64,000 nt of DNA from Enchytraeus crypticus (taxonomy: Eukaryota > Annelida > Clitellata > Enchytraeida > Enchytraeidae), in NCBI GenBank assembly GCA_905160935.1, contig CAJHZI010000655.1:747501-811500 (forward strand), written 5' to 3'. Below, one piece after another: positions 19,884 through 62,593 of the stretch (its first letter is position 1; every line of letters starts with the position of its first letter). A program made the translations under genes and the position numbers. The notes below the pieces were generated by a model, which saw only the letters and a list, made by a program, of their open reading frames with translations, was not told the DNA's origin and did not search any database.

Positions 19884-20646
19884 TCACGCCAAATCCGTGC
19901 GAGAAAGCTGACCTGGTTCAAGCTCAAAATAGGAAATGGATTTTAGAGAGTCGTCTTCACTTCGAGACTCGAAGCGATGAGGTGGTTTAGGAGGAACTGG
20001 TAAACTTTCTATTTCATCATCCACGCTCTCGCAATCGGCTAAATCGTAGAGTCTTTGATTTGAAACGACAAAATCTCTTCCTTCAGTACAGTCACGTTGA
20101 GAAAAAGATGACAAAGAGCATTGTTTTGAAACGCCGCTGGATGCTATTTTAAAATTTGCCCTCAAGGTCTCCTGGTTATTTATTCCAAGCCCGTATACTG
20201 TTTCTCGCCCTATTGTATCCGCGAAGAAACTGCGATTTGAAACAGGTCCTTGTGAGCCGGCGGCAGATTCTGCGCAAGTATGATTAAATTGGCTGTGAGT
20301 ATCGTTAGAGCTCTTGAATTCTTTAGGTGCATGTCTCGATACCGTGGGAGCTTCCCTTCCAGTGGTTTGTCCCATGTCTGTTGAAATGCCTCTCCGAGTT
20401 CTATTTGTTCCGTAGTCGGATCGTAATCGCTGATCCAATACGGGCTTTAAATCCGTAATTTCCGGTATGTATGAGTAAATGTTGTCATCCGTCCAGTCTT
20501 CCGATGCATTATTAATTAAATTTCCAGCTCCTCGATACTGATGCGGATTCACAACGATTTTCGTCTGCGTCGAAAATTTTCCTCCCGTTTCGTAGACATC
20601 AGGAGTTCTTGATAGTCGATCGTTTGGCTGCGAATGTTTGTTCCTG
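19884..20646 (-). CDS. Receptor gene, exon 7: cytoplasmic tail
   Basis: Open to the acceptor and ending with TGA at 19884-19886. It encodes 253 polar residues with scattered tyrosines (NIYSYIP, TVYGLG, RLYDLAD, SYFELEP) and a proline-rich SLPVPPKPPHR that fits SH3-binding patterns. The acceptor reads GAGCAGCAG: exon starts at 20649, 20646 and 20643 all keep the frame. I chose 20646 (CAG/CAGGAAC). The frame runs open further upstream into the intron by chance. Confidence 0.75.
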
Positions 20647-23600
20647 CTGCTCGAGAAAATTGACAAAGTTAATAAATATATTAAGTGATTTAAGCAATAG
20701 GACACGAATTGGCAAATCTACAAGAGCTTCTATGGTTCATTAAAATTGAAAGCATTTTGTCTAATAAAAAACCAGTAACTAAAATATCAATTCAATCGAT
20801 AAATAACGTTCAGTAGTTCAGAAAGGTTTATCAAGAATCCTGCATTCTCTAAAGTAAATTAAACAAATATGGTTAAGCCTATCTTTAAATCAGCTGCAAG
20901 ATGCATTGATTTGGTGGGATTTAATTAAGCACACCAAAAATGGTTTTAAACGTTGTGAGAATCACCATAAAATACCTAGCATAAAGGACACTAAATAGTA
21001 TCCAGTAGCAATCCTTAGTGTCCATTACTTAACTAAAATGTAAGGAACATAGACTAGTGCAATGATGTAATCAAAATTAAGACAACATATTCAGACAATA
21101 TTGCAATCAAAATTAAATTGACGTTAAAGATTAATAATAAACTTTTTTACATGTATTTTTTACAAATAGCCTCTATCCATCGCCATGAGATAGGCCTGTA
21201 TAATCATTAATCACTATATTCATTTATATTTGAGTAACGAAGTTTCTGCTTGAAGCGATCACTACGTTTTGAAATAGAAACTCCATAATTCAAAAATATT
21301 ATATAAATTACAAAAACAAAATATAACATTGAAATATTCGGCACATCTGAAGAGTATAGAAGTTCTACCTTTGTTAAACCTAGTTTCAAGAAGCTTAAAC
21401 CTAATAAATTACATTTATAACTTACCATCTCAGAATGAAAAGTCCTCCGATGAGAATAAATATCGAAAACAAAACAGCAATGGCTATGATGGTAAATAGT
21501 GAAGTTCCTGAAATGCAGCAAAAAGGGACAAAAATGATCAATTTCGGCAGGTTTTCATTAAATATTTTAAGAACACAATTAGATAATTATAACTCAAGAA
21601 AACGTCGTAATAAATTCGATTTACTAACGAGACAATGAATGCCCGTTACAATCGTCAACAAGAGTGCAATTGTTTCAAAACAAAGATAAGTAAAATGTTA
21701 TAGAGATGCTTAATAAATAACTAGGACTATAAAAGTGGACTTTTTAACTACAGATAGTAATAATGCAGACTACAAAATTAATTTTTTGTCGTTATAAACG
21801 ATAGCGCTATTATTTAAATATCGATAATGCGAGGATTACTACAATATGCAACGATAGCGAGTAGATAAAGGAGTTGATTTCTTATACTGTAAATAACGAG
21901 ACGATAACTAAAATATCTTGAAATTCTAGCTAGCAATAATAGTTGGATAAAGAAAACGGCTGACTTATATATAGAGCTGCATTTGTAGCAGTCAATAATT
22001 CTGGGTAGCATATGCCACATAGCCTATATTTTTTAATAATCAAATTAGTAACTTCTATTTAAGATATTTTAATGAAATTTTGTAATATCGGTAACGAAAT
22101 TTTATGGAAAATTTGACTACGATAACGAGAAAATAACGAATTCGATGCATTTGTTTAAAGGAATTAATGATGCAATAATGATAAATATACCTCCATAAAT
22201 GTAACAAGACGATGACGAAATACATGTATGGCATTTCTGAATTACATCACTGAGAGTTTGAGAAATTTATAGGTTACTTGGTAATACTGCAGTATTTTAT
22301 TCGTATTACTATTAAAAACGGGACTCTTCAGGTTCAGCCCGTTATCGTTTTTCAAATAAAAATCCTAGGAAATGATTCACTTAGCTGTTTGACGTTTTCT
22401 TATATACCTCTATATTTATTAAAACAAGAGAAATTGCTTAGTCATTTCAAGCGAAATGAACATACCGAAATGAATGGATTTTCCGATTACAGCTGATTCT
22501 CTGTACTTTGCTAAGCTTCCTGGAATATTAATTTAAAACACTTTTGTTATTTCGCTGAAGCATTTAGTATACCTAAGAATCTGTAAAGATATTTTAAACT
22601 TTTGAAATATTACGTAAGAATATTCCACAGAATATCTCTTCTGATATATATGTACATTTTTAGCATTCATATTTCTAGTAATCTATTTTGTAGCGAGTAT
22701 TATCAGAATGGAGAATATGCGATTAATATGCCATAAACTCACTACAAACTCGAGTCAAGGTAGCTTGGAAGATAAACTGATATGGTTTTGAATTCATGAC
22801 TATCAATAAGTTTAACAGAATCTAGTCTCTAAACATGAGACACCGTCAATTGCTATGTTAAGGTACAGTTATAGCGCTGTATCGTAATTTTAACTACTGT
22901 AGATTTTAGTAACAAAATCATCTTTTTATTTGCAGCAAACAACGATACTCATTAAGAGTTATATCTATTAGTAAAATTGCTGGAGCCAGTGGCGACGTTG
23001 GTTAGATACTCGACCGCGGATCAGTAAGTGCGGGAGTTCAAATTCTGGGCTCGCTCGTCACTGATTTTGCTTTCGAGTGAGGAAACTGATGTTAACCTTA
23101 GCTTTTTAGCTTTTCGCATAACCTTAAAGCTATTTAAAGTGTCTGATAAGCAACGCAGAGGATAATGCCGGTGACGATTTCTAGAGTTACTCTTCAGCAA
23201 AGGTTAAGGCTTCACGCATCTCACACAGAGTTACGCATGTTTCGCCTTTTTGAAATAAAAGAGCTAATTTATCATCCATTTCTGTACCACAAGGGACAGA
23301 ACACATTCTAAGGGAAATAGTTTAGTGAAGGAGGTCATAGAAGGTAGAATGAAATCAAAGAGATGCAGAGACAGACCGAGATTAGGAATATCGGATGATT
23401 TAAAGATCCAGAGAAGAGTGGAGGCGTTATATACCTTGGACCTGTCAGTAGGTATTACGTTAAAACAGAGAGTGAAGGGATACTTTCAGATAGAAGGGAT
23501 ACTGGGAGTCGAACCGATGATCTCCTGCTTCTAAATGATGGTTAACCCGTCGAAATTTGAATTAACGCAAAACCCACCTGTAACTCCGGCACAGCTGTCT

Positions 23601-25239
23601 ATCGGTCCAATCCAATGGGTTCCGTTACAGGTGAACGTGATGACTTCATCTTCACCGGGGTCCTTAGTACATCCCACTAGCATCCGGTCCTCGCTTAGCC
23701 TATCAGTCCAAATCCACTGTCCTTCCACAGGATCTGCGCACCCAATTGCTGCAATATTTACAGAAAAAATACATGATTAATTTTCATACTTTCTTTATTT
23801 TAAAATGTGATTTGTTTTTTATTGAATGCTTATGTATTAATCATTGATTGTATCAGCCAGCATATATCTGTATCCAGTTATTCGTTGTGTATATATTAAC
23901 AAAATCTCAGAATTTTCTATTCCATCTGTTAAAATACATGTTTCACAGCCAAAAACCCAGCCATATAAGCCCATATTGAGGGGTAAAGCTTAATATTTGC
24001 ATAAAAGATAATATAACACGAAAACATGAGGAAGACTTAACTAAATACCTATTACACTCTAGCTTTTCTGTTTCTTTTCTTTTCTTTTTAAATACACCGA
24101 CAATTCTACTTGACCATTTCAAAATAGCATTTTTCAAAAAGCATCAAGATGACAATGGTAGTATTACGAGGCGAATGCAATAACTTTGAGAAATTGTATT
24201 GCTCGAGATATATGCTTGCATTCTTTCTTCAGAGAGCTCTACGGATATTAACCGATATGGACTCCGCATTACGGACTGTCATGGACGATTGCCTGCAGGA
24301 TTATCTTAATCCTAGACCAATAGTAATATATGGCTCCTACTGCTTCAGACGTTATTCACGAAAAGTTCAATGAAGTTCTATGCTCGAATATACGGGTACT
24401 CGTCACTCTGGAGTTGTATATTTCACTCACTCACTCCAGTGGTAGTAGTAGATATACTAAGTAGTAGATTTAAGGCACATATTCCTATTCTCGTTGCATA
24501 TTTTTGCTAGAGTAATGGTGACCCAGCCACGAATTGGAGCATCCATATCAGTAATGTAACTTATAATCCATGCGATATCGAGCACAAAGAATTTTATCAA
24601 TTGTAATATACATATTCCTATTCACGTATACATGATGTATAATCCGAAATCAAGTAATTAGTGAAAGAGTTTATAATCGTCATCAGAAGACAAAATTTTG
24701 AAGAAAAAAATCGTTCAGATCATAAGAAATGGACTGAAAAAATGATTATAAACTTGACACCTATCATCTCAATTGTTGATGCAATATCTGCATAGTGCAT
24801 AGACCTATCTACATATGATATATCTTCTCTGGCTGCAATATTCGAAATGAAATAACACATAAATAAAATGTAGTAGAGGAACCTACAAGACGAGAAATAA
24901 ACAATCACTGCTTATTTTGTTTTCGTTATTTACTCCCATTATATTTCAAATTTATCAGGCACCCATATACAGTGTTACAAAACATGTAGCTTGGGCCAAC
25001 ACTTACATGAAATAGTAGGCCAACATGCATTATTTTTAAATGCATGCATATCCTTTTAAAAATGTCTGAACATAATTGCTTTGCACACCATTTTCTTCTC
25101 TTTTATTTACTATGAATGGTGGTACCTGATTGCGTTACATGATGAATACACTGTTTATGAGATAAAAATAGTTAAAAATAAAGTTTAAATAATTAACAGC
25201 AATGATTATTTTAAAGCACTATTTTGTTGCTCTTGGGCA

Positions 25240-25279
<40 letters not shown>

Positions 25280-28200
25280 TTCTCTCTCTCTCTCTCTAAG
25301 TGTACTTCCTATTGGCAGATCCATGGCATATAAATCCTCTACATATTTCTATCCACTTCTTTTTTCTTCATATCAACATATGACTTAGTTATCAAATCGC
25401 CCTTTATCCCAACTCTTGGTCTTCCTTTAACCTTCATTCTTCAATTAATGCCTTGTTATCTCGCTCCGAAAACCATTCCATCTCAGTACATTTCCCATCC
25501 AGTTTTTTCTCTACGCCTTTTTTATGTTATCTATCAATTTATATCTATCAATTATTATAAAAACTCTTAATTTTTGTCGTGCTATTGCTCTTACCTTAAA
25601 TTTTATTATGGCTAGTATAAAAGGTAAGTTACAATTCATTACAATATAGTGATATTTGAGTTTTATGCATGATATAAAGAACCTTTATCAAACATTACAG
25701 CTGCTAAATTTTAGAGTATTGCATTCGAATTTATAACTCTGCAGTACCAATAAGTAGGAGCCCAATATACATGTAAGTGTGTAACAAAACTTAGACATTT
25801 AGCAAGAGAATGTAATTAATAGTTAACCTAATTTGTAATTAGCATCCACTCTTATGATTTTAACTATAATTTACTATAATAAATGTACTAGTTAATCATT
25901 AGCAGGTAAAAGTTTTGCCGGTTTCATTTCAAGACTCTCTTCAGAAAACAATTTCAAGTGTCCAGTTTCCTACATCGCCAAGGTTCTAAAATCCACTTAG
26001 TATTCCACACAGGTTCCACTACAGCGAGAGCCCTGGAAGAAGATGTAATCTGAGAAGGTAAGAAGGCATCGGGTGATGTCGGCTGACGGATAGAGATGGA
26101 CGTGAAGGTAGTGAGCCGTAAGGGACGCCGGCAGGTCTTGAGAGGGATTGGCGAGGATTTGAGGTGACAAGTCAATTACCGACCAGATCAAACGATTCCC
26201 GCCGTCGTCTCCTCAACCCGTCCACTCTCGCGAGCTGAGAGTAATTATTGGCTGGAAGACTAGGTAGACTATAATTTAAGCAAATTTGAAATCGCTTTAT
26301 TCCAACGGCATATCGTTAATTTTCGTTAACGTTATCTTTTTTCGTTGGCGTTATCGTTAATTTTCGTTTCATATGAAAATTTAAAGGAAAATTTATTTAC
26401 GAAAAGTTTGAGCTTCAAAATTGAGTGAAAATGGTTGAATTTAATCGGGAATGATTTGTACGTTTCTGGAATCTTATGCTTGTTAGGAAAAGACGCAGAA
26501 TCTTGCTAAGATCGAATGACAAGCAGTAGTGCCATAGTATCCTAGTACAAAATTGCAGCAAAATATTGGATCCGTAGTACAGTGCCGCAGTAGAAATCCG
26601 TAAAGCCGATGTTAACGTTCATTTCATCTCACGAAAGATATATCAGTGACGGGAAAAAGCCAGGAGTAGTAGTAATAGTAGAGTAGTACATGATTAGTAG
26701 TAGTGTCAGTATTAGTAGTACAATATTACAGTAGTGCAGTGCCTTAATAATACGATAGTATAATAATATTGATAGTACCGGAATAATAAAAATTATAGTA
26801 GCAATAGTACAATATTAATAATATATTAGTTTAGTAATAGTTCAGTACAGTACAAGTGCAGTTCTAGTAGTACATTATTAGAAGTACAGTATTAGTAGTA
26901 CAGTATTAGTAGTACAGTATTAGTAGTACAGTACTAGTAGTACAGTATTAGTAGTGCCGCATTAGTGCTAGTGCCGTAGTACAGAATGAATATAAAAAAT
27001 AATGTATATCATGTAACTGTAGGTAATGATTCAGGAAGACTACGCTCAGTTCGATTGCCAGATTTTATCAGTCAACGAAAGGCCCCATTTGATGCCAAAC
27101 CGTTGTTAAATTATAATAATAATTTTTAAGAGACACATCACAGAATTATTATCTAATTAATCAATGAAATCGTCTTAGTGAGAAATTGAATGACATATTT
27201 AATCATTATATAAATTCGGTCTTTGATATATTGCATCAAATGAATAATGATTGAATGAATCAAATGAATAATGGTTGAATGAATCAAATGAATAATGGTT
27301 GAATGAATCAAATGAATAATGGTTGACTGAATCAAATGAATAATGGTTGAATGAATCAAAGGAATAATGGTTGACTGAATCAAATGAATAATGGTTGAAT
27401 GAATCAAAGGAATAATGGTTGAATGAATCAAATGAATAATGGTTGACTGAATCAAATGAATAATGGTTGAATGAATCAAATGAATAATGGTTGAATGAAT
27501 CAAAGGAATAATGGTTGACTGAATCAAATGAATAATGGTTGAATGAATCAAAGGAATAATGGTTGAATGAATCAAATGAAGAATGGTTGAATGAATCAAA
27601 TGAATAATGGTTGAATGAATCAAATGAATAATGGTAAAATATGGTTGGCTAACTGAACCATCTGATTGGTCTGAGGTTATTTCTTGCAGAATTTAGAAAC
27701 CGTTTATGTCTCTTCTATAGGAGGTTATTATAGTAATAATAACCTCCGACAATTTCTCCGGTGTCATGACCGGTGTCCGGTCTTCGAGACCGCTTTACAG
27801 GTTTACAGATTAATTGCATTGAATGAAAACAGAATAGAGCGTTTGCCTTGAGTTTATAATAACTCACGTTGACCTGGTATTGTCGGTTAATATATAATCC
27901 CTGGTCTATTCGCATGTACCAGCCGAGACAAAGAGACCTACCGTGTAGGGGTTTACCGAACGGACGTCCCCGGGAAAGAACCCGACTTAATCCCGGATCT
28001 ACTGGCTCCGCCAAGCAGTCCTGACCGTCGTCCCTTTCTAGAATCCCCTCGGGGCCTTGCTTAATTGACGCGATGAATTTAGTACGTGAGAGCCGAACAC
28101 GCTTTAATCCTTTCAATTGAATTAGCTAACGCGACGGCTTGATTGCATTGAATGGATTGAGCTAAAACACGAAAGTTGTTTTGAATTTATTGAGTTTATG

Positions 28201-31200
28201 CGAACGCTTTCAGGTTATATTCGCATGGCAATTTTGACGATAGTTTGGGGAAGAGGGTGATACATTGGTACAGCCTGAATATTATAATCGCGAGACCTAG
28301 GTCGAAATTCCAGACCCGTCAGCAATTTATGGTCCTCAGACTAATGCGAGAGTAATTCTAAATCTGAAAGAACAGCAAAGACTGATGTTATATTTGTAAG
28401 GAGATTGATTAGGGAGTTTAGAATAAAATACTTCAGAAAAGACCAACATTTCAATTCTCGCTAAGTATTAGGCGACTAAGAAATAACTAACGAAGACAAT
28501 GGAGCATCATCTTAGGAGTAACCTAGCTCCAATTCCAAAGACTATAATCGACTTTTCATTCGACTTTGTCGAGCGAAATTTATAAATATAACCCAAGCCA
28601 AACACGAGATTCGTACATATTTGATTTCATGTTTTAAATTAGAGTATAAGACGAGTTAGTGAAATAGAGTAATAACTGACAGATCCGAGTCATTAATTAG
28701 TCAAACATTAGTCGATTTATTACTCGTGTTTTCCAGTGCTGTTCTTTCGCACTATCCAGTGTTAGTGTCTAGTCGAGGTCAACGCAAGCCCTCGTTCTAG
28801 TTAATTGACTCCTGCTTATTCAGTGCCCGCTAGTCACTTCCTTTGTAAAAAAAGCTGGTAAAGATAAAGGTAACGATAGTTTCTTCACTCGAAGGCGATG
28901 TCAGTGACGGGCGAGCCCAGGATTTGAACCTCGCACATACTGATCCGCGGTCGAGTTTCTTACCGACCGACAACTAACCTTTGTTAGAGCATACTTCAGG
29001 TAAGGGTCACACAAGTGGTACCCCCAACACTACTATGCTATACCTACTGCTATTGCCGAGACTCTGCGCCGCTTCTATACTGCCTGGTCTCGCTGTTGAC
29101 GATATCCTATGAGCCCGCGTGGAGCAGTGATGTTGAGTAATTTTAAGCGATTTAAAATAACTATAGCTTTTTTATATAAAAAACAGAACAACTTTTCTTA
29201 CTTAACATCCAGTTCACTGGATGTTAAGATAGAGAGAGGTAGACCACAACTTATGTAGGATGTGGTGATTAAGAAGAATATGGAAAACAGATGATTAACT
29301 AATGATATGTTGTGGAACAGAGTGGATTTGAGAAGGTCTATTCGTATCCCGACCATAATTAATCTGGGATTTATGGGAAGATGAGAATGATTCTAAAGGA
29401 CAGAGTTGCATACCTCTTGTACATTGTAAACAGGCCATATAAATGATAAGACATCGACTTTGTGAAGGGATCAACTTGTTGATCTAAGGAGAGTTCTTAT
29501 GGAGCGAGAAAGTAGACTTTGAGTATGAATATGTACCTTGAACCTGCCACTTGGCAGTGCACTGAAGAGATAGAAAGTAAGCCAAATGGATAACAATGTC
29601 GTTACCACTTTGATTTTAATATTAGACCCATATACTATTTCGGAGCTCTAATCGATTTGAGCAAACAGTATTGTTTTTTTCTTTGGGTAAACTGGATTGC
29701 TTTCTCAGGGAATTACGCCCCTGCTCAGTAAAAGTTATTCGAAGCTGAGGAAGGCATAGGGGCCCACCTCGTCATAAGCAGAATCCCCCAAGAGTAATGG
29801 TATATCAAAAGCAATGTAATAGATGATTTAATTTAAATACCCATTCGTATATGGACATGAAGAGGAAGACAGAGGACAGAGATGAGTCGAGGCGTTATAT
29901 ACAATGGACCTGCCAGTAGGCAGTGCACTAAGACAGATGCTAATTCATTTAACGAAATATTATTAAGATCCAGAACAAAATTTCTCAGTGCAGCTCATTC
30001 ATCGGAGTTGAACGGCACTAGGTTTTTCATGTTATAATTAGCGAACGAGACTTTTCAAGTTCAATACATCGATAAGATGCTTGAAGGTAAAAATTAAAGT
30101 ATAGCTGTACATAGTTGTCTAAGGATAATTAACTATAGCCACGTTCAATTTTTAACTAGCCTTTAGCATATAGGATTATGAGATAAAATGATCCAATATG
30201 CTGAATCAGTAACATGTATCATTTAGAAGTTTCTGAATTTAGTAAAAGAATTGATAAATAGTTTTTTATACTGTCGAGTAGGGTGTTTCTAATGTAACAT
30301 TTATAAGAGTTATCTAACTTTCATAAAGATTTATTGTCATACGCTTTCATAAAGACTCTATTCTGTACTGTAGATCTCATTATCTAAAGATTGTGTTATT
30401 TACATCAGTAGACAACACATAACTAGAGGCCTAAGATTATTCAAACAAATGTTCTGCAGAAAGCAGGAATTCTTAAACCTATTGGACAACAAGGCAGTCG
30501 CCAACCTCACACATGGATATCATCAGCTTAGAGTCCACAAAGTCTTACTGTACGGCCGTGTTGTACAGGACGCTGAGAATTTTATCATTGCTTTGAAAAA
30601 GTAATTACAACACGTAACAAGAATGTTCCATTAGATTCCGCAGCGACTCTCTCTCTCATAGGACTCTTTCAATGCTATTCTATTAGCACGCGTGTCTGTC
30701 AGAGAATATTTATCTAGCTGGAGCGACTCTGTCTGTCATAATAGAAACATTTACAGGTAATAATGAAGAAGGTTGTGGGAAGTTACCGAGTAAGTTAAGT
30801 TTTACCAAACTCGAGTCTAAAGGGATTGGAAAAGGTTAAAAGGCTAAACCCATAGTTTAACGCCAGTTTCTTGCGCCGGTTTCTTATATTTTACCATACT
30901 GAGGTCTATACTAAGATTTGAAAATGGCTAGATGCTAAAAAGCTAAACTCAGCTTTGGCGCTAGTTTCATGTCTGCAAAACTAATCAGTGTTTGGTTGGT
31001 ATGAATATGAAGGCTATATTCCAAACTGATCCGCAGTAGAACACCTAACCGCCATGCTACCGGTTAAGGCCTAAACGGCAAGATATTTGTGAGTGTAACA
31101 AATTATTTCAGTAGCTGTAGAGAGAGAATAAAATTGCACGGTAATTTGAGTAACAAACGAAATAATTGATATTGCGAATTCAACGAAATCTTAGCAAATA

Positions 31201-33668: not shown

Positions 33669-33710
<42 letters not shown>

Positions 33711-39069: not shown

Positions 39070-39165
<96 letters not shown>

Positions 39166-41062: not shown

Positions 41063-41109
<47 letters not shown>

Positions 41110-41406
41110 CCCGTGCTGTGTCCGGGTTGCTTGAAAAATAGAGCAACCGTATAAATATACTGTATACGTGTCGTAGAACGCGACATAAAAACTAGATCCA
41201 AACCAACGTCATAAAAGGCGTACGGTTGGTGAGCGCCTAGGCTCCAGAAATTGCTACAAAAACTTAAACGAATGGATAAACTTGAAAGTCAATTCGTATT
41301 CCGACCCTGGATAAACTGGGATTTAAGGGAAGATGATGATGATGATGATGATGATATATATACTGATATATATATATATATATAATATATATATATACTG
41401 ATATAT

Positions 41407-41439
<33 letters not shown>

Positions 41440-41583
41440 GTATCTATATATCCCACTTCGCCAATGGCTGAAGTCATTGGCGAAGTCGGCAAGATACTCG
41501 ACCGCGGATCAGTAGGTGTGGGTTCAAATTCTGGGCTCGCCCGTCACTGACATCGCTTTCGAGTGAGGAAACTGACGTTTTTA

Positions 41584-41631
<48 letters not shown>

Positions 41632-46580: not shown

Positions 46581-46615
<35 letters not shown>

Positions 46616-46694
46616 AAGAGGAAGAGAGGAAGAGAAATCTGATATGAGAGAGAAAGAGTGAGAGAGAGAGAGGAAGAGAAATCTGAGATAAGAG

Positions 46695-46737
<43 letters not shown>

Positions 46738-49700
46738 TAAATTGTTTCTCTGTACTTGCAAACCGAGACTAAATAAAGCTTTTATTAAATTATTTGCATG
46801 TGACTTATTATATATTAGAGTTATATTCTAGATCTTGCAAAATGTTCGGTCTCTCATTGAAATATGTAACTTAAATATGGACAACTTGTAACAGTGAAAG
46901 AGTAGACCTGGCTTCAGCAGAATACCTATGTAGAGTAATTACGTTTTAGCGGCCATTTATATTAAAAATTTGGCTCATTTGCGAGAAGAATTATGTAATT
47001 AATCGTACGTAAATCAAATTAAGCAACTTGTAATTTAAATAAAAATGTCTAATTAAAATGCAGAGTCTATAATAGGCCTCGTGTATATAATAGTTAAGGC
47101 TTTTAACTAATGGTTTGGGTGAAATGGGCGTTCTCTGAACAATCTGGCTTAATGAAGACTACTTTAATATCCATTTCACTATATCATGAAACATTAGCCT
47201 ACTCATTAAAGTCCTTGGCATAATTGTTATGGTATGTATTAACGTCATCCTGGTTAACTTATTTAAATACTTATCTAATTAATAGACATGCCGTAATGAT
47301 ATCAAATATTTTATTTTGTTAATGCAATAAATATGTACCACTCAAACACATACATAAATTTATTTCTTAAACACATACGTAAACTTATTTCTTAAACACT
47401 TATCGAGTAATCGTAAACTTTATTCTAAACTCAAATATAAAAAAGTAAAGTTAATTCTTTTATCAACGTCCAAACTACAGATTAAACTTGCTCTTCGTTC
47501 TTGGTCGAAGTCTAATCATTCACCCCAACTAAGAAATTGAATCTCTTTCCCATTGCACTGCCTACTGGCAGGTCCATGGAATATAACGCCTCCACTCATC
47601 GCTATCTTCAGTTCTCATCTTCATGTCCACATACGAGTGGATCTTTAAATCATCTATAACTTTCCTTTTGAAATACCATTATTCTTGGGGGATTCTGCTT
47701 ATGACGAGGTGGGCCCCCTATGCCTTTCTCAACTTCGACTAACATTTACTGGGCAGGGGCGTCATTTCCTGAGAAAACTATCCTGTTTACCCACCTCTGA
47801 GAAATTGAGTATTTAATAATATCTCAAAGACTCGATTAAACTGAAATAACTTAAGTTAAGAGTCCGTCTACATGCTACCTGCATCTACATCGTACATTTA
47901 CATCCCGTACAACTCTGATTTGAGCTATAATCAACACTGATTTATATGGATGCAAAAGAAATAACAAATGCAATAGATAAAAAGATAAAAGTCAGAATTT
48001 TAAATAACTATCATAATCTCAGGCAACAACCGGAAGGAAGGTTATTAAACTTCAGGAGAAGCTGAGCGTATCTACACTAAAAACCGGATTTGCATCACAA
48101 CACAGCACCCTGACTGTAGCTAAGCTGTGCATTTCAAATTGAAGATAGATTTGAGTCAATTAATTTAATGCAATGTCAATTAATTGAAACATTTAGATAA
48201 GGAACAAAGAATATGTGGTCGAATTGTTAACTTGAGACAGTAGCCAATTACATTTTTAACAATCAATAGCAGAGTATATAACAAATAAACATTTTGTAAT
48301 AAAAATAATATACATTTCAAATAATAATAAATATATAACTAATATAAATTTTATAATATATTGCATATATATATACTACCACTGCATATATGTATAATAT
48401 ATATATACTGTATATATATATATATACATGTACATATATATATATATTCATTGGCTGAAGCAAGTGGCGATGTCGGTAAGATATTCTACTGCGGATCAGT
48501 AGGTGCGGGCTTAAAATCCTGGGTTCATCACTGACATCGCTTTTGAGTGAGGAAACTGAAGTTAATATTCTCTTTTTTACTACTTTATATAATATATACA
48601 GTATACAATATATAATATCATCGTCATCATCTTCCCTTGAATCCCAGTTCAACCAGGGTCGAGATACGAACAGACTGTCTCAAATCCTCTCTGTCCTCCA
48701 CCACACCACCAGCCAATCCCCTATTTGAGACTTTTCCATTCGTTTAAATTTTTGTAGCAATTTCTGGAGCCTAGGCGCTCACCAACCGAATGCCCTTTCT
48801 GACGTTGGTAACAGTATACAATATACAGTATATGAGTATAAAAATCAAATAAAATTCCACTTTTATAGAAAATCTGCTTGAAGTTCTACATTAGAGAACA
48901 AGAAGGGAATTTGCAATCTAGATCGTAACTCAAATAAAAATAAGTAATGTAAATCCTGAGCCCAACCAAGCGTGGGCTCATTCGGTGGTATATTTGGTAC
49001 TCGGGGAGGGGAGGGGCTGAGTCAGTTATTGAATCATGCAAGAGCAGTCGCTTCACGTCCCCTGTGGACGAATAGCAAATAAATTTCGACTGATCCTGAC
49101 CGCCAAACGGTTACAGGCGCCAGATATAATCTCAATTGAATTTCTCCCGGCAGGCGAACAGCCACCTCTAGTCCGCTCTGGGACTTTGGAACCGGTATCC
49201 GTCTTTCCTGTGGTCGTATTAACTTCACGAGAACAGATCGTGATCTCAACCTCAGAATGTTATTCAGTCCGGTTGGATCATCTCCTCAGAATGATATTCT
49301 TTTTAATAAAATGAATGTTTTGAGAATACTGAGCTTAACTGTAAACTTTTTTATGGCAGTCATGCGGAAGTTAGATGTGTTTAAAACGAAGCTAGATGAT
49401 GGCCACGTAAGCAACAAGCTTATCTGATAAGCAATATCCTTCAGGTTCTAATCCGCGCCCGAGCAGTCTCTGTCAGTAGGGTTATAGTAACCTACACACA
49501 GATGTTAACCTTTATAAAATCAACATTGTTTAATAAAAGTTATAAAACTTTAAACAATGTTGACTTTTTACATCGACGTCAAAAACTTGACGTTAAATTT
49601 ATTAAAATGTTGACTGTACTTCTTACTGGAGCCAGTGGCGAAGTCGGTAAGATATTCGACCACGGATCAGTAGGTGCGTGTTCAAATCCTGGGCTCGCCC

Positions 49701-52700
49701 GTCACTAAGATCGCTTTCGAGTGAGGAAACTGACGTTAGCCCTAGCTTTATCAGCTTTTACTTTAAAACTCTTCAGTCTGACATTTACTAAAATAACTGA
49801 TTATGTGTTTAATTCTTCTAAAATAACTGATTAGGTGTTTAATGTTTAGATACATAGCTGATTAGAGGTGGAAACTCAGAAAAATCTGTGTTTGAAATAG
49901 TGGGTAGTCTTAATCTAGTCTTTAGTAGTTTTTTAAACTTTGACATAGTAATTAGAGCCTACAATAAATGTAGAAAGCTAGACCTAGCACAACTGAACAT
50001 AAACAAACTCATCTTCATAGATAGGACGTACAAAAATATTGGAACTCATGGGAAAACTCCAGCTATCAAAAGAATTTAGTGTAACTTGCTTATACGAAAT
50101 ACAAAGAAACTGTGTTGACATGAATCTGGAAAACCGCGAGCTTAACGCGCATATTAAAATAAATCGAAGTATTTTTAAAAGTTGTCTTATTAAGCAATTT
50201 ATAAGCAAGTTTACTTTCTGAGTGATTTTATAACAACTTATGTACCCAATAAGTTGCATTTTTTAGAAAATTATAAAATGATCTGTGAAATAAAAAAATA
50301 TTAAGAGCAAAGTTTGGAGTCTTTTTCGATACCACATGGAAATGGTAGAGTCTGTACAGCTGGAATCTGAACTATCGTTTACAATGTGACAGCAAATTAA
50401 TATTTTATTTAAATATTTATATCTCATCGAATAATTATAACGGCTTAAAATTATTACTTTTATAATGACTTCTGTTCAAAGGGCCGTCCGACTTCCAATG
50501 CGGCCGAACATGGATACTACTGTCTATTAGAAGCTTATGGATTAGAATTGAATTTTTAGCAGAGTTTTACCGAGGAAAATATTTTCTGATGGTATTTTTA
50601 TTCAAATAGCTGAACATGAGGCTACATATTACATGCTTATCTATCCGAAGCTTTTGCGAGTTTTCTACAGTATCAGTATCATCAATTATTTTAGACGCGA
50701 ATTGTATAGCACTATGAGACGTGCGATTATTATGCAATGAAATATGCAATATTATTTAATGAGACATTTAATTCTTGTCATGAGATATGCAACTATTATG
50801 CAGTAAGGCATATAATTATTTAATTTGCAGTGACATGAGAAATTATTATGCAAAGAAATATGTAATTATTATACAATGCAACATGCAATTATTATTTAAT
50901 AAGACTTGCAGTTATTATGCAATAAGACATGCAATTGTTATGCAGTTGAAATAAATCTTGCAGCATTTTTCGTTTCGAATTTGATTAAACTGCACCAGAA
51001 CCTATCATTGATACTTGAAAAGTCATACCCCTTATAAATACTTGAAAAGCAAAAATATAGTCCTTTTCAAAAATTATAACTATTTAAATTACTTTATGCA
51101 TTTATTAACAATATACTAAATGTAATTAATCCTCAACCAATAAATGCTTCCTGAAATAAACAATTACTTGCATTGGTTTTTATTTTTTCGAAAGTTTCGA
51201 CGTTCATATTAAATATGATTAGTATATTTCTCAACATACTGGGTTAATCTTTTTAATTTCTCTTCTAGTATCTTTTCCTCTCTCCGTTTACTATATATTG
51301 CTCTTACTTTCCTATAGCATTGATTTCCGTTCAACTCTCAATTGTACGAATAACAGAGTGAATCTTTTCTCATTCTCTCTATTGTCAGCCATTTCATTTA
51401 TCTGCTACACTTAAATGTTAAAGAATCACTTCGATTTTGTTGGTATTACTTTATCTTAGGACGACAGAATAATGAGTAACTCAATACTTCAGGTTTTATT
51501 TCTGCTTAGGAAGTACATTATATTAAGTGCAATTTCTCTCTCTCTCTCTCTCTCTTATTGCTCTGCTTACTGGCAGATCCGTGGTATATAACGCCTCTTC
51601 TCAGCTCTATATTCCGCGTTCCTGTCCGTGTCCACATACGAATGGATCTTTAAGTCATCTACAACATTTCTTTTATTATACAACTATTTTTGGGGATTCT
51701 GCCTAGCCTATAACATTTCTTTTGATATAAAATTATTCTTGGGGATTCTGCTTGTGACGAAGTGGACCCATATGCCTTCCTCAGCTTCGACTAAAATTTG
51801 GGGCACGGGCGTCATTCCTTGAGAAAACAATCCTGTTTACGCTTCTTTAGTACAATATCATGCATTAATAAGTCTATTCAGAATGTGCACTCCATAATAT
51901 ATGCATTGTATAAATCAAGAACATTTCTCAAGAATCCTCTTGGAAGCGATTCCATCTAATGCAGTAGAACCTCTAAAATGGGTGCGAATTACGCGCTATG
52001 AATCCTATCCAATGGGCATCTATACTCCATTAGAGAGCATCAGAGGAATAACATTTCCAGGATTTTATGAGCTGGAGATAGGATCGCCAGAGTGAGGTAG
52101 CAGGTGTTTCGGTCGACAGTCTCGAGCCCTCTGTCTGATGCGCACTAAATGAGCAATATAGGAATATAAAATTCCATTATTTATCGACTTCTCTACTCGG
52201 GGCAAGTGAAGGTGATGACTTCTGACTCGATCTCTTTTCTCATCACGTTTCTATCTAAGGATTATAATCTCCTGCGCTTTCTCGAGAATGCTATCTGACA
52301 TCTGCAGGATATTCTCGAAATAATGTCACCAAATGGGACGCTAATAAAGAGTAGGACTGGTCATTCAAGATGGCTTTGCAGGTCAGAGAAATAACTTTAA
52401 TAAACACTCTATTTTATTGCGATGAAAGAAGATGATAATAAATATATACCCGTATATATCTATATGTACATGTATATATATATATATATATATATAATTA
52501 TTTATATATAATTATATATGCTCGTATATATAATATATAAAGGTCTATATATGTAGCCTAATAGAATATATAATAGAATATAATATATATATTATAGAAA
52601 TAGAATATATAATTATATATAGAAGAATATATATATATATATATATATACATGTGTATATATATATATATATAGAATATGTACATGTGTATATATATATA

Positions 52701-54216
52701 TAAGAATTTTCTCAACATATTTCGGAAGAAGATCTCTCTAAGCTTACAACATTTTCTCCTCAGTACATTTCTTTTGCCGATTGGTCTGGGTGAACTGATC
52801 TGTAGTGATGTTTGTTGTTGGGGACGTCCCTGACATCATCCCTGGATGAGGTAACGGACGTTAAACCTTTATTATTATTATTATTATTGTTATTATTATT
52901 ATTATTATTATAGGATAAGGCCCTAGACATAGAAATATTAAACTTTTCTAGGTTGTTAAAATATTCAGTCTTCTTCCCTATTTTTTACATGATCGCATCT
53001 TTGACTTCATTCGTACAGTTCAGGCTCTAACCACTTTCTTTTCTAAACATATTTTCCTCTATTAGAGATGCAGCTCTTTCTCTCTTTGCAGCATCATAAC
53101 AGTCTCTTAAATTTATAACATGGACCACTGAAGAATAGACAATCCGTTTACTGTGCGTGTTCCTGCAATCTATTAATATGCAAATGAGGAAGGCAATTTA
53201 ATGCCATATTAGATAATAAATATGTCCTAAGCTAAAAGACTTCTGGTTTGACAATGGAATGACAACATTCCACAAGTAAAATTATGTACCTTTAAACTGT
53301 CATCTGCTACGAAAGTTGGAGTGAATAGCACAAACAATCAAAGACACCCAGTCTATTTTACTATATGCTGGCATAACACGTGAAGGACTAAATGTCATAA
53401 TATAACTGAAGTTTAAAGTTGATTTTCTCATCCTTAGTTCATATAAAGAATAATCAAGCAATAAAAGTCAACTATAATCACTCTAAATTACAAAACGAAA
53501 ATTCACATATTTTGATGAGACATTCATGTTACGACCAAAACACTACAAATTTGAACAACAGCAAACTGCACTTGTCTTAAGAGGTAGCTAAGCAGGAAGC
53601 TGGGGAAGGTAATGGAAACCCACATAAAATGTAGCATTTTTTCAAGCTAAGGCTAAATAAAGTTTGGCAAAGACCTAGTCATTGCCAAACTTTATTTAGC
53701 ATTAGCTTGTAAAAATGCGTCACGGTAACAGCGCCACGGCCGGTTACTGGGCTTCGAGACTGCTTTTCAGATGCCTGATAAATTTGTTGTAGTCTTTTTC
53801 CGCTGTTAATCATATCATAGTTTTTATTAGCGTCAAATTACAGCAAACGCAGATATACTATAAATCGTACAAGGTCCCAAGAAATATCCATTTATTGTTG
53901 AATTTCCTGGGCTTGTACCCAGGCCAATTGATTCCGAGGCGAACAGTCTAACAGTTGCGTAATATTCTGTCCCCACTATTATTGAGTGTGAAGACAGAGT
54001 GTGAGTGGAAATATGTACATCGGACCTGCTACTTGACAGAGCACTAGAGAAAGAAAACTAATATAAATAAATAATTAAATTCGTAAAACTATTTAACAAA
54101 TCAATTCAATGAAAACAACATTACAGAAGAAAACACTCACCTGCTTCTGCGTCGTAACAGAGTAATAATCCAAAAGCGAGAATGAATCCAGGTTGAATAT
54201 ATTTAACAGCAATCAT
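19884..54216 (-). CDS. Transmembrane receptor with SUEL lectin, CUB and CCP-like domains (seven exons, 584 residues)
   Basis: Seven exons, 54141-54216, 35781-35960, 34457-34570, 32901-33269, 23578-23748, 21426-21507 and 19884-20646, join in frame with GT-AG borders to 1755 bp including the stop. Order: signal peptide (1-25), SUEL/galactose-binding lectin-like domain (about 30-121), CUB domain (127-246), CCP/sushi-like module (250-300), transmembrane helix (308-329) and cytoplasmic tail (331-584). The sequons NCS, NATS, NVT and NGT lie in the extracellular part. The product should be a type I surface protein that binds glycans or proteins outside and recruits partners inside. All introns between extracellular exons are phase 1, typical of shuffled modules. 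I know of no named vertebrate protein with this order, and extra alternative exons in the 18-kb first intron are not excluded. Confidence 0.8.
21426..21507 (-). CDS. Receptor gene, exon 6: transmembrane segment
   Basis: The acceptor is TGCATTTCAG (ends 21508) and the donor GATG/GTAAGT. It reads TSLFTIIAIAVLFSIFIL followed by IGGLFILR, one hydrophobic helix with a basic stop-transfer residue on the inner side. It enters at phase 1 and leaves at phase 2, fitting both neighbours. Confidence 0.8.
22979..23115 (+). mobile_element. tRNA-derived SINE, family A
   Basis: Core CTCGACCGCGGATCAGTAAG, B-box-like GTTCAAATTC, GAGTGAGGAAACTGATGTTA and tail TTAGCTTTTTAGC. It lies in receptor intron 5, opposite to the gene. 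Confidence 0.75.
23283..23480 (+). mobile_element. LINE 3' end remnant (GA-tail family)
   Basis: Reads HILR..SLVKEVIEGRMKSK-like, then R.RPRLGISDDLKI, followed by the shared 'ataccttggacctgtcagtag' module with degenerate GA end. It is homologous to the minus-strand copy at 62556-63300. Confidence 0.65.
23578..23748 (-). CDS. Receptor gene, exon 5: CCP/sushi-like module
   Basis: 171 bp with phase 1 on both sides; acceptor AATATTGCAG, donor ACAG/GTGGGT. It encodes IGCADPVEGQWIWTDR, then MLVGCTKD, ITFTCNGTHWIGPIDSC. The four cysteines and the final G.W.G....C pattern fit a CCP/sushi module, but at under 60 residues with an unusual first half it could be a divergent relative. Confidence 0.75.
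25232..25520 (-). mobile_element. LINE 3' end remnant with GA microsatellite
   Basis: On the minus strand, equivalents of RMKVKGRPRVGI..DL and of the 'atccatggcatataaa' module read into a (CT)n/(GA)n run at 25243-25299. Same family as 62556-63300. Confidence 0.6.
25937..26240. other. GC-richer island of unknown nature
   Basis: Stands out from its AT-rich surroundings. The minus strand is open from about 26195 to 25997 (LPASLTAHYLHVHLYPSAD, then CLLTFSDYIFFQGSRCSG) but closed at both ends without good splice sites that fit the receptor's phase. It could be a decayed exon or an element fragment. Confidence 0.3.
26660..26960 (+). repeat. Degenerate TAGTA / 14-bp tandem repeat
   Basis: Low-complexity TAG-rich DNA that becomes a regular 14-bp repeat (AGTATTAGTAGTAC) near 26880-26960. 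Confidence 0.6.
27253..27636 (+). repeat. 24-bp minisatellite, 16 units
   Basis: The unit reads GAATGAATCAAA then TGAATAATGGTT. Units 4, 6, 9 and 12 carry GACT for GAAT, and units 5, 7, 11 and 13 carry AGG for ATG, so variants are interspersed in a semi-regular order. Because the unit is 24 bp the minus strand stays open as an 8-residue repeat, which is not evidence of a gene. Confidence 0.9.
27715..28130. other. GC-richer island with TATA-like motif
   Basis: The minus strand is open for 133 codons (RFGKPLH-like and GRSLCLGWYMRIDQG motifs, no family recognised). The plus strand has TATATAATCCC at 27890-27900 followed by GC-rich sequence, as in an LTR or promoter. The candidate splice borders are phase 0 and would not fit the receptor. 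A stretch at 27762-27800 resembles 53725-53765. Confidence 0.3.
28851..28970 (-). mobile_element. tRNA-derived SINE, family A
   Basis: Minus-strand copy with reverse complements of GACCGCGGATCAGTATGTGC, GGTTCAAATCC and GACATCG.CTTCGAGTGA. The last part, toward TTACCAGCTTT, is kept. Confidence 0.7.
29201..29228. other. Perfect 12-bp stem-loop
   Basis: CTTAACATCCAG, loop TTCA, CTGGATGTTAAG. It lies directly before a LINE-tail remnant. Confidence 0.7.
29229..29400 (+). mobile_element. LINE 3' end remnant (GAT-tail family)
   Basis: Reads as a typical end of a LINE polyprotein (ERGRPQL, then DVV.KNMEN, LWNRVDLRRSIRIP) with stops. It ends in AATCTGGGATTTATGGGAAG plus GATGAGAATGA, the same 3' end that G-family SINE-like elements carry at 41280-41356. 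Confidence 0.55.
29447..29580 (+). mobile_element. 3' module of modular repeat 'R'
   Basis: Nearly identical to 62325-62450: 'gacatcgactttgtgaaggg', 'tggagcgagaaag.agacttt', 'cttgaacctgccacttggca'. The head part is absent. Confidence 0.65.
29685..29945 (+). mobile_element. Composite SINE-like element 'C' with LINE-type tail
   Basis: A head (GGGTAAACTGGATTG, 'ctcaggga.ttacgcccctg', 'gaagctgaggaaggcatagg') is joined to the tail of the GA-tail LINE (GGCGTTATATACAATGGACC, then TGCCAGTAGGCAGTGCACTA). The same join is found at 47545-47795 and 51535-51845 on the other strand. Confidence 0.65.
31325..31390 (-). mobile_element. LINE GA-tail fragment
   Basis: Minus strand: TATATCATGGACCTGCCAGT then TGGCAGTGCTCTGAGAGAG, the terminal module of the GA-tail LINE family. 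Confidence 0.55.
32425..32672 (-). mobile_element. tRNA-derived SINE, family B
   Basis: Aligns with 11315-11552 along its length, for example GTGAATGTCCG.GATTTTACTC and AAAACTTCATGACGTT on the plus strand. The B box is slightly decayed (GGATTTGAATTTC). It lies 230 bp from the CUB exon. Confidence 0.7.
32901..33269 (-). CDS. Receptor gene, exon 4: CUB domain
   Basis: 369 bp, phase 1 on both sides; acceptor ATATTTTAG, donor GAAG/GTAAAT. It reads LNQHCSQNNFLVISNATSGF, then CPWLVEVAKGQRINVTLWDF, SCQAYAVIRD, VCGGPDRIKHVY and NRLEIRIQ, closing with HFLIYYEG. The CPW, G..I.VTL.DF, C..Y.VI and CGG elements and the final aromatic F.I.Y strand are CUB hallmarks, and the whole 110-120 residue domain sits in this exon. 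Confidence 0.85.
33579..33740. repeat. AT microsatellite
   Basis: (TA)n with CATATA interruptions. Open frames rich in Ile and Tyr inside are artefacts. Confidence 0.9.
34253..34388 (-). mobile_element. tRNA-derived SINE, family A
   Basis: A near full-length minus-strand copy ending 69 bp short of receptor exon 3. It shows GGTTCAAATCGTGGGATCGC on the minus strand, the GACATCGCTTTCGAGTGAGG block and an AGCTTTACCAGCTTTAC tail. Confidence 0.75.
34457..34570 (-). CDS. Receptor gene, exon 3: second half of SUEL lectin domain
   Basis: 114 bp, phase 1 on both sides; acceptor TATTAACAG, donor CCAG/GTTAGA. It encodes RRFCTIGVPNSAYEG, then CPRDLKSYLQASYDCLP. Joined to exon 2 it gives CSGRRFCTIGVPN, the C.G+..C.I.V.N pattern of SUEL (galactose-binding lectin) domains, with the closing KYL..Y.C replaced here by SYLQASYDC. 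Confidence 0.8.
34838..35102 (+). mobile_element. LINE 3' end remnant (GA-tail family)
   Basis: Reads KKIWMGHVLRGNGLLKGIIE, then RMKGKLVRGRPRLGM and the module GCCATGGCACTGCCAATAGT / CAGTGCACTAAGAGAGAG. It lies in receptor intron 2. Confidence 0.7.
35446..35573. repeat. Long inverted repeat (58-bp arms, 12-base loop)
   Basis: Arms 35446-35503 and 35516-35573 match at 52 of 58 positions; the core TGTAGAAAAGATTGAGTG is perfect. It lies in receptor intron 2 between a LINE remnant and exon 2. It could be a tiny foldback/MITE-like element or an RNA hairpin. Confidence 0.85.
35781..35960 (-). CDS. Receptor gene, exon 2: first half of SUEL lectin domain
   Basis: 180 bp, phase 1 on both sides; acceptor TCTCTTTCAG, donor TCCG/GTATAA. 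It reads EVIEVCQTQELKANCSRDEV, then LMREAKYGRMRLTRC, GYMGCSTDVLRQSDHLCS. The early C..Q.L.A.C, the YGR triplet, the C..DVL pattern and the C near the end follow the SUEL family. Confidence 0.8.
36226..36345 (+). repeat. Direct repeat, two units of about 80 bp
   Basis: The core TGCCTTAAACCAAC.TATGG is repeated at 36248 and 36330 with similar flanks (AGAATA.CGA.CTCAAT). Confidence 0.6.
36491..36629 (+). mobile_element. tRNA-derived SINE, family A
   Basis: One of the best-preserved copies: GACACTCGACCGCGGATCAG, GGGGTTCAAATCCTGGGCTC, GACATCGCCTTCGAGTGAGG and a TTATCTTTAGCTC tail. Confidence 0.8.
38102..38298. repeat. AT microsatellite
   Basis: (TA)n interrupted by ATGAATATA units. Confidence 0.9.
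38480..38840 (+). other. GC-richer island with TATA box and poly(A)-like signals (LTR-like?)
   Basis: A TATATATAAGACCCC box at 38480-38494 is followed by about 230 bp of GC-richer DNA that is open on the plus strand to 38716 but resembles no protein I know. AATAAAG follows at 38827 and again near 38858. This layout resembles a promoter-to-polyadenylation unit of a solo LTR, but TG...CA ends with a target duplication were not found. Confidence 0.25.
39061..39163. repeat. AT microsatellite
   Basis: Almost pure (TA)n in two runs split by GCAA. Confidence 0.9.
39683..39735 (+). repeat. 14-bp tandem repeat, about four units
   Basis: The unit CTCGAGTTAGGA plus a GA-type joint contains the palindrome CTCGAG (XhoI site) each time. 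Confidence 0.85.
39835..39915 (-). other. tRNA-like sequence (SINE head or tRNA pseudogene)
   Basis: The minus strand shows a good B box, GGGTTCAAATCCTGG, and an A-box-like region about 50 bases upstream. No closed cloverleaf was found. The body does not match SINE family A or B. Confidence 0.35.
41063..41107. repeat. AT microsatellite
   Basis: (TA)n directly abutting the head of a G-family element. Confidence 0.85.
41108..41356 (+). mobile_element. SINE-like element, 'G' family with (GAT)n tail
   Basis: The most complete copy: head CCCCGTGCTGTGTCCGGGTT, middle GGTTGGTGAGCGCCTAGGCT, 3' end TCGTATTCCGACCCTGG and AACTGGGATTTAAGGGAAG, then (GAT)n. AT microsatellites flank it on both sides. Confidence 0.7.
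41357..41455. repeat. AT microsatellite
   Basis: (TA)n with ATACTGATATA units, between a G-family element and a family A SINE. Confidence 0.85.
41463..41591 (+). mobile_element. tRNA-derived SINE, family A
   Basis: Has ACTCGACCGCGGATCAGTAG, GGTTCAAATTCTGGGCTCGC and GAGTGAGGAAACTGACG. It ends in a (TA)n run (41588-41660). Confidence 0.75.
42163..42272 (+). mobile_element. Degenerate SINE (family A-like)
   Basis: A GGGGTTCGAAAAT B-box-like stretch and the ACTGACGTTAAATTAG tail are left. A second AATCTGACGTTAAATTC tail at 42108 suggests another eroded copy just upstream. Confidence 0.3.
42748..42783. other. 12-bp stem-loop
   Basis: GTGAATTAACCT, 12-base loop, AGGTTAATTCAC. AT-rich, weak stem. 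Confidence 0.5.
43053..43267 (+). repeat. Degenerate tandem repeat, about 27 bp, eight units
   Basis: The unit is close to TATCAGTATTTTAAGG followed by TATAGGACT, with drift between units. Confidence 0.7.
43380..43620. other. GC-richer island of unknown nature
   Basis: Unique-looking sequence of balanced composition (CGTAGCTGGGCCCCTTTCAT and onward) with no long open frame and no splice borders that fit the receptor. Confidence 0.25.
44436..45952. mobile_element. Non-autonomous hAT-type element (1517 bp)
   Basis: Ends in the inverted repeat TAGAGATGGGAAT and is flanked by a perfect 8-bp target duplication CTTATAAG (44428-44435 and 45953-45960), the hAT signature. Both subterminal regions (44465-44645 and 45775-45945) are arrays of GGTTCGGTTCG / GGGTTCGG units pointing the same way. 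No transposase is recognisable in the AT-rich middle. A LINE fragment is nested inside. The intact target duplication suggests a fairly recent insertion. Confidence 0.85.
45470..45600 (-). mobile_element. LINE fragment nested in the hAT element
   Basis: Matches 63190-63295: TTAATCTTCATTCCA, ATCATTCAGACTATCCATTA and CTTCTGTAGGCC on the plus strand, that is, the part of the reverse transcriptase just after the active site on the minus strand. Confidence 0.65.
46525..46733 (+). repeat. GA microsatellite, compound
   Basis: GAGA runs with AGGAAGAGAAATCTGAGATG inserted at intervals, so a longer unit of about 50-70 bp is itself repeated about four times. Confidence 0.85.
47545..47795 (-). mobile_element. 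Composite SINE-like element 'C'
   Basis: Minus-strand copy of the element at 29685-29945, with the LINE-type tail (TTATATTCCATGGACCTGCC, AGTAGGCAGTGCAATGG) and the head CAGAAATGACGCCCC-like at its start. Confidence 0.65.
48352..48448. repeat. AT microsatellite
   Basis: (TA)n directly before a family A SINE. Confidence 0.85.
48449..48577 (+). mobile_element. tRNA-derived SINE, family A
   Basis: A diverged copy (CTACTGCGGATCAGTAGGTG, TGAGTGAGGAAACTGAAGTT). The B box is mutated to GCTTAAAATCC and the GCTCGCC block is deleted. Confidence 0.65.
48604..48815 (-). mobile_element. SINE-like element, 'G' family, with longer LINE tail
   Basis: On the minus strand the element ends in AACTGGGATTCAAGGGAAG and GATGATGACGATG, preceded by about 60 bp (GGAGGACAGAGAGGATTTGA) that other G copies lack but that resembles the end of the GAT-tail LINE at 29229-29400. 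Confidence 0.65.
48950..49300. other. GC-richer island, open in both directions
   Basis: The plus strand is open for 92 codons (ISIEFLPAGEQPPLVRSGTL, then VFPVVVLTSREQIVISTSEC) and the minus strand for 71. Neither resembles a domain I know, and no receptor-compatible splice sites were found. Codon-like composition on the plus strand makes a captured or decayed coding fragment possible. Confidence 0.3.
49516..49568. other. 17-bp stem-loop
   Basis: AAAATCAACATTGTTTA, 18-base loop, then TAAACAATGTTGACTTTT; one mismatch. Confidence 0.6.
49625..49762 (+). mobile_element. tRNA-derived SINE, family A
   Basis: Near full length: ACTGGAGCCAGTGGCGAAGT, TTCAAATCCTGGGCTCGCCC, CTTTCGAGTGAGGAAACTGA and a tail of GCTTTATCAGCTTTTA. 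Confidence 0.8.
50725..50945 (+). repeat. Degenerate tandem repeat, about 22-25 bp
   Basis: Units close to ATGCAATAAGACATGCAATT with TATT spacers, about nine drifting copies. Confidence 0.65.
51535..51845 (-). mobile_element. Composite SINE-like element 'C' with GA microsatellite
   Basis: Third copy. An internal segment (ACATTTCTTTT.ATA.AA.TATT then TTGGGGATTCTGCCT/TTG) is present twice, so part of the body is tandemly duplicated. It ends in (CT)n at 51535-51555 on the plus strand. Confidence 0.65.
52441..52702. repeat. AT microsatellite, compound
   Basis: (TA)n with ACATGTGTATATA and AGAATATA units. A short (TTA)n run is separate, at 52866-52911, after a SINE-like ACGGACGTTAAACC tail. Confidence 0.85.
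53632..53719. repeat. Inverted repeat with 38-bp arms and 11-base loop
   Basis: The inner 27 bp (AAGCTAAGGCTAAATAAAGT...) match at 26 of 27 positions, and the outer bases (GCATTTTTTCA against GCATTTTTACA) extend the stem. The left arm continues the conserved part of modular repeat R (GGAAGGTAATGGAAACC, CATTTTTTCAAGCTA). Confidence 0.8.
53990..54055 (+). mobile_element. 3' module of modular repeat 'R'
   Basis: GAAATATGTACATCGGACCT, GCTACTTGACAGAGCACTAG and AGAAAGAAA match the R-type end. Confidence 0.45.
54141..54216 (-). CDS. Receptor gene, exon 1: signal peptide
   Basis: ATG at 54216 opens 25 codons, MIAVKYIQPGFILAFGLLLC then YDAEA, a typical signal peptide with the basic start, hydrophobic core and small residues before the cut. 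The donor GCAG/GTGAGT leaves phase 1, fitting exon 2. An in-frame TAA at 54244-54246 limits the start upstream. Confidence 0.75.
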
Positions 54217-62450: not shown

Positions 62451-62555
62451 AGAAGACGAGAGAATATCAATTATTAATTTTTATAAATTTAGTATTTATT
62501 AATATCTACGAACTTAACTTACTGATCCAAAGTCATAAAATGAAACTAGTCGATA

Positions 62556-62558
62556 TTG

Positions 62559-62593
<35 letters not shown>

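Follow-up and report, generated by a model that had tools for sequence, protein, structure and literature searches.

A candidate single-pass membrane receptor with a SUEL domain and a probable CUB domain in the annelid Enchytraeus crypticus

The stretch of DNA analysed here (the window) comprises 64,000 nucleotides of Enchytraeus crypticus contig CAJHZI010000655.1 (GCA_905160935.1). Its minus strand contains seven exons that join, from 54216 to 19884, into an unbroken reading of 584 residues followed by a stop codon. All six introns of this model have GT-AG borders with matching phases; the start phases of exons 1 to 7 are 0, 1, 1, 1, 1, 1 and 2, and the borders of the ectodomain exons are in phase 1 throughout. 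The number of exons, the protein length, the splice borders and the fitting phases put forward in a first-pass annotation of the window were all reproduced, at the same outer coordinates. Exon 1 (54141-54216), the only candidate between 35970 and 64000 under the thresholds given below, supplies the start codon and the signal peptide MIAVKYIQPGFILAFGLLLCYDAEA. Exons 2 (35781-35960) and 3 (34457-34570) encode the first and second parts of a SUEL domain, as assigned by Pfam and by alignment to PDB sequences, with exon 2 carrying the motif KYGR and ending in a weak donor, GTATAA. Exon 4 (32901-33269), a phase 1-1 exon, holds an entire CUB-like domain with four cysteines, for which the Pfam CUB score lies below the curated cut-off. 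Exon 5 (23578-23748) encodes a short module of putative identity, recognised by its count of four cysteines, and exon 6 (21426-21507) the transmembrane segment, at about residues 308-330 (hydropathy maximum 3.03). Exon 7 (19884-20646) encodes a cytoplasmic tail of 253 residues with PKPPHR and ISYFEL and includes the stop codon; it begins at a CAGCAG tandem acceptor, which may give a protein of 583 or 584 residues. The locus is plausibly an intact animal gene for a membrane receptor.

Several other features lie within the window. All seven copies of a dispersed repeat of ~130 nt (mean column identity 77%) are in introns of the receptor gene model, and repeat comparison placed them on the plus strand at 22974-23106, 36490-36621, 41462-41592, 48449-48576 and 49620-49758 and on the minus strand at 28843-28967 and 34246-34390. 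The repeat includes what we take to be a tRNA-like A-box (TGGCGAAGTCGG) and B-box (GGTTCAAATCC) and is a probable tRNA-derived SINE; Rfam and tRNA scans of the whole window were empty. The intron between the CUB exon and the four-cysteine exon contains a 24-bp tandem repeat (27235-27635; 16.7 copies, 94% matches) whose minus strand is open as an 8-residue repeat, and a 63-nt direct repeat of 90% identity occupies 33864-33926 and 34583-34645, the near edge of one copy being 13 bases from the first base of exon 3. Some patches outside the exons are rich in G+C (25981-26280, 27861-28140, 38461-38700, 48941-49280 and 57821-58100), and a single frame taken from each of 27715-28125, 38311-38718 and 57873-58058 had no Pfam match. 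Open frames with ankyrin repeats are found on the plus strand at 3-2255 (750 residues, open at the window edge) and at 11625-14207 (860 residues); they are 64% identical over 777 aligned columns and probably form a tandem duplicate pair. On the minus strand, frames at 62546-63352 resemble, by eye, what we take to be remnants of a non-LTR reverse transcriptase, and none of the three pieces scanned had a Pfam match. Those at 15595-16635, also on the minus strand, presumably resemble a protein common in invertebrate genomes beside mobile elements; the two frames scanned there likewise lacked Pfam matches.

The exons of the receptor gene differ in how clearly they stand out as coding. The G+C content is 44-54% in five of the seven, compared to 26-35% in the introns, and exons 1 (37%) and 6 (35%) are indistinct from introns by this measure. 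As a control for openness by chance, we drew 20,000 random stretches from the gene's own introns. At the lengths of exon 4 (369 nt) and exon 7 (763 nt), 0.33% and none of these were open, respectively. The corresponding figures were 3.2% at 180 nt (exon 2), 3.5% at 171 nt (exon 5) and 9.6% at 114 nt (exon 3), so that exons 2, 3 and 5 are unremarkable by openness alone and draw their support from the domain content that they encode. The SUEL sequence is continuous across the junction of exons 2 and 3 in the PDB alignment, despite the weak donor of exon 2. For exon 1, the minus strand of 35970-64000 was scanned for ATG-led first exons that encode a hydrophobic core and end in a phase-1 donor scoring above 3; under these thresholds of our own choosing, exon 1 alone emerged as a signal-peptide-like first exon. 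This uniqueness depends on the donor threshold, since two of the six donors in the same model, those of exon 2 (-1.23) and exon 3 (2.97), would fail it. Codon usage, for which the reference was a single gene (the ankyrin frame at 11625-14207), ranks the coding frame first in exons 6 and 7, with all frames of exon 6 negative; in exon 1 it comes second and in each of exons 2-5 last. As the coding frame is not first in five of the seven exons, the gene model is without codon-usage support.

These observations raise the question as to whether the transcript might differ from the model, with exon 1 or exon 7 belonging to another gene, or with additional exons within the 18-kb and 9-kb introns. The introns are long and rich in repeats, the exon 2 donor is weak and there are several G+C-rich patches outside the exons, all of which would fit such a transcript. 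On the other hand, phases and frames agree throughout, exon 1 is unique under our thresholds, and the frames taken from three of the G+C-rich patches, one from each, have no Pfam match, so that we consider a different transcript unlikely. The lack of a codon-usage signal in five of seven exons could also be expected of a decayed or non-expressed copy. That possibility appears very slight, however, as 584 codons are free of stops and frameshifts, the splice dinucleotides are intact and the 16 ectodomain cysteines form complete modules.

The first domain of the predicted receptor is a SUEL/RBL domain, in agreement with the first-pass annotation. Pfam PF02140 (SUEL) matches it significantly in the context of the whole protein (E 2.1e-5, 25.2 bits), and the excised segment (E 2.7e-7) scores 31.3 bits, 0.1 bit short of the curated cut-off of 31.4. 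Searching the PDB with the whole protein (E up to 0.1) gave a single match, latrophilin-1 (2jx9; 0.026), and the excised domain, at E up to 1, matched seven sequences, each a latrophilin or a rhamnose-binding lectin, with 2jx9 again the best (0.0047). Eight cysteines (32, 41, 62, 72, 84, 90, 107 and 121) align with those of latrophilin-1 2jx9, and the YGR motif is present as KYGR at residues 53-56. Sixteen cysteines lie in the ectodomain past the signal peptide, divided over the three modules as 8, 4 and 4. None of ten shuffles in which the cysteines were held fixed (five of SUEL, five of CUB) matched SUEL or CUB in Pfam, and four of them matched another family, with a best E of 0.044. Two other Pfam matches on the SUEL piece, CVNH (E 0.061) and SAMD1_SHD (E 0.12), were set aside as chance, and NCBIfam gave no match for any of the three ectodomain modules. 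Among the weaker PDB matches are the rhamnose-binding lectins CSL2 and CSL3 (E 0.27 and 0.88), which share the SUEL domain. CSL2 and CSL3 are free fish-egg lectins with tandem domains, whereas the window protein would be membrane-bound and has a single SUEL domain, in which the sugar-site glutamate discussed below is absent.

The second domain is probably a CUB domain. Pfam PF00431 matches with E 0.019 (15.7 bits) in the whole protein and with E 0.0012 (19.6 bits) when the domain is excised, below the curated cut-off of 21.4; the CUB domain claimed previously is graded here as probable. By itself, the whole-protein value is weak, since shuffled sequences match other families down to E 0.044. 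CUB domains have four cysteines in a characteristic order, and the four in exon 4 (132, 163, 193 and 211) follow a CUB-like order. The exon has five weak matches in the PDB (E up to 5; best E 0.23), four of them enteropeptidase chains and one TSG-6; both are CUB-containing proteins. A single-sequence AlphaFold2 model was uninformative (mean pLDDT 37.3), and scanning prokaryotic genome contigs with a pattern of the exon produced 31 pattern matches and no relative.

Exon 5 is harder to name. Sushi domains have four cysteines and a tryptophan before the last, and the module has cysteines at 250, 273, 287 and 299 with a tryptophan preceding the last one, in THWIGPIDSC. No Pfam family, Sushi PF00084 included, matches the exon at E up to 10 (HMMER filtering removes most of those with E beyond about 0.1), and Sushi PF00084 is likewise absent from the whole-protein Pfam scan at E up to 1. 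In the PDB, the exon matches two sequences, scIg12 and dIG14-scdim-EF62, and no sushi chain, and its structure model is unconfident (mean pLDDT 47.7). Because Sushi-like cysteines and tryptophan are accompanied by neither a Sushi match nor a confident model, we call it a four-cysteine module, and the CCP identity given to it in the first-pass annotation is not retained. Of the single-pass SUEL-CUB-CCP-TM order proposed there, the single pass, the SUEL domain and a probable CUB domain stand.

The segment encoded by exon 6 is the only predicted membrane helix besides the signal peptide; a Pfam match to PspG at this helix (E 0.12) was set aside as chance. The 253-residue tail that follows has no Pfam match. 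It had been described as signalling-type, with several tyrosine motifs and a proline-rich motif, and we compared its motif counts to those in 2000 shuffles. There are two YxxPhi motifs (YFEL and YSYI) against 1.5 expected and one ITIM-like motif (ISYFEL) against 0.33 expected (P 0.28), which puts the tyrosine motifs at shuffle frequency. The proline motif PxxPx[KR] does occur, as PKPPHR, and is marginal (one against 0.09 expected, P 0.084). As no other motif is even marginal, the label signalling-type amounts to a guess from the length and position of the tail. NPxY, YxxM, YxN, [RK]xxPxxP, dileucine, acidic dileucine and PDZ-end motifs were all absent from the motif scan of the tail, which for ITAM relied on visual inspection. 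A scavenger or endocytic receptor, in which YFEL would drive uptake rather than signalling, would have the multiple ectodomain modules seen here and could use either the single YFEL or the single YSYI. Yet two YxxPhi motifs are close to what shuffling yields, and the tail has neither NPxY nor acidic dileucine, which makes an endocytic role improbable.

An important question is whether the SUEL domain would recognise a glycan or a protein. The latrophilin-1 RBL domain, in the structural account available to us, holds rhamnose via Glu42, Tyr63, Gly117 and Lys120, with Gln77 and Tyr119 flanking the methyl group of the sugar (PMC2430599). According to the same account, sugar binding by RBL domains requires a glutamate directly after the first cysteine, and the E42Q variant of latrophilin-1 binds rhamnose about 80-fold more weakly (Kd 141 mM instead of 1.78 mM) (PMC2430599). 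We mapped these positions by alignment to 2jx9, with latrophilin numbers obtained by counting. The required glutamate is absent from the window protein, in which Gln33, after Cys32, takes the place of Glu42. Gln77, Gly117 and Tyr119 are replaced by Gly68, Arg109 and Leu111, Tyr63 is kept as Tyr54, and Lys120 corresponds to Lys112, a loop-2 lysine beside a one-residue insertion in the alignment. Since the SUEL domain lacks the glutamate that the latrophilin-1 RBL needs for sugar, a protein ligand is favoured over glycan sensing, and this part of the receptor more likely grips protein than sugar; the domain may still bind sugar weakly or in an altered way, as Tyr63 is kept and Lys120 aligns with a lysine. 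Non-carbohydrate ligands are also what the authors of the latrophilin study prefer for receptor RBL domains, in the text available (PMC2430599). The first-pass annotation had left the choice between a glycan- and a protein-sensing receptor open; the former is weakened by Gln33 and the latter gains. A lectin receptor that binds rhamnose- or galactose-type sugars, for example microbial ones, and signals through its tail would agree with membership of the SUEL family, with the retained Tyr54 and the aligned Lys112, and with the sugar binding described for egg RBLs (PMC2430599). Against it are the change of Glu42 to Gln33, for which E42Q and its effect in latrophilin-1 are a direct parallel, the change of Gly117 to Arg109, and the presence of one SUEL domain only, when the RBLs characterised by 2008 cluster via repeats or oligomers, as far as this source describes them (PMC2430599). 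We regard such a receptor as somewhat unlikely and prefer a protein ligand.

Among the matches listed for the open-access literature, no named receptor combines SUEL, CUB and one membrane helix; to that extent, the earlier suggestion of an undescribed receptor may hold. Those domains that can be recognised in the protein nevertheless belong to known types. Drosophila CG42402 is, we assume, a SUEL-domain gene and hence a candidate orthologue. In the portions of the literature accessible to us, CG42402 appears in an embryonic macrophage gene list, in the neighbourhood of Gfat1 and in a tissue-expression table, without its domains being named. Orthologues are likely annotated as uncharacterised proteins. 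Gal_Lectin, CUB and Sushi occur together in only one open-access paper, on Oikopleura, which was rejected as a precedent as these domains are in legends for secreted house proteins; no membrane protein that combines SUEL and CUB was found in the available parts of it (PMC3390340). A GPCR SUEL entry from Apolygus is, in the text available, the latrophilin Cirl and not a matching receptor, and no matching architecture was found in the text available on rotifer lectins and on Aplysia.

Two families are nevertheless instructive. Latrophilins (ADGRL, Lat-1) have an extracellular RBL domain and provide the solved structure nearest in sequence (2jx9, E 0.0047), but they are adhesion GPCRs with seven membrane passes, and the single helix predicted here rules out membership. 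EVA-1/EVA1C (C21orf63) is closer in layout, being described in the text available as a single-pass protein whose extracellular SUEL/RBL lectin-like domains have degenerate sugar sites (PMC4133157, PMC2430599). C. elegans EVA-1 is a co-receptor for protein cues, and both of its lectin-like domains are needed for binding of secreted MADD-4, as far as that source reports (PMC4133157). However, EVA-1 combines two RBL domains with a short tail, in contrast to one SUEL domain and 253 tail residues in the window protein, and these differences rule out membership of the EVA-1 family. In addition, the term CUB is absent from the main text of PMC4133157, whereas the window protein has a probable CUB domain and a four-cysteine module.

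With moderate confidence, we lean towards an intact gene for a type I single-pass receptor or co-receptor that would work in an EVA-1-like manner and bind a protein ligand via SUEL and CUB. The working model is EVA-1 as a single-pass RBL receptor for protein guidance cues. The SUEL and CUB domains would jointly hold the protein ligand, which we infer for this head from the absence of the glutamate needed in latrophilin-1. Ligand binding, or pairing with a co-receptor, might then bring the tail to cytoplasmic partners, and its one SH3-type proline motif could recruit an SH3 protein. A bolder proposal, which we consider doubtful, is that the protein belongs to an undescribed class of co-receptors across one animal lineage, in which a sugar-blind SUEL domain would join a CUB domain and a four-cysteine module of new fold in one protein-binding unit, and a long, SH3-binding tail would lead to signalling, as in a guidance or immune-cell receptor. 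Whether receptor-attached SUEL domains have sugar or protein ligands was left open by the latrophilin structural work, as far as the text available goes (PMC2430599). With one SUEL domain, a natural glutamine at the sugar-site glutamate and a CUB neighbour, the predicted protein would be a clean test case for this question, and the locus would add a receptor without a known ligand, whose partners could be sought.
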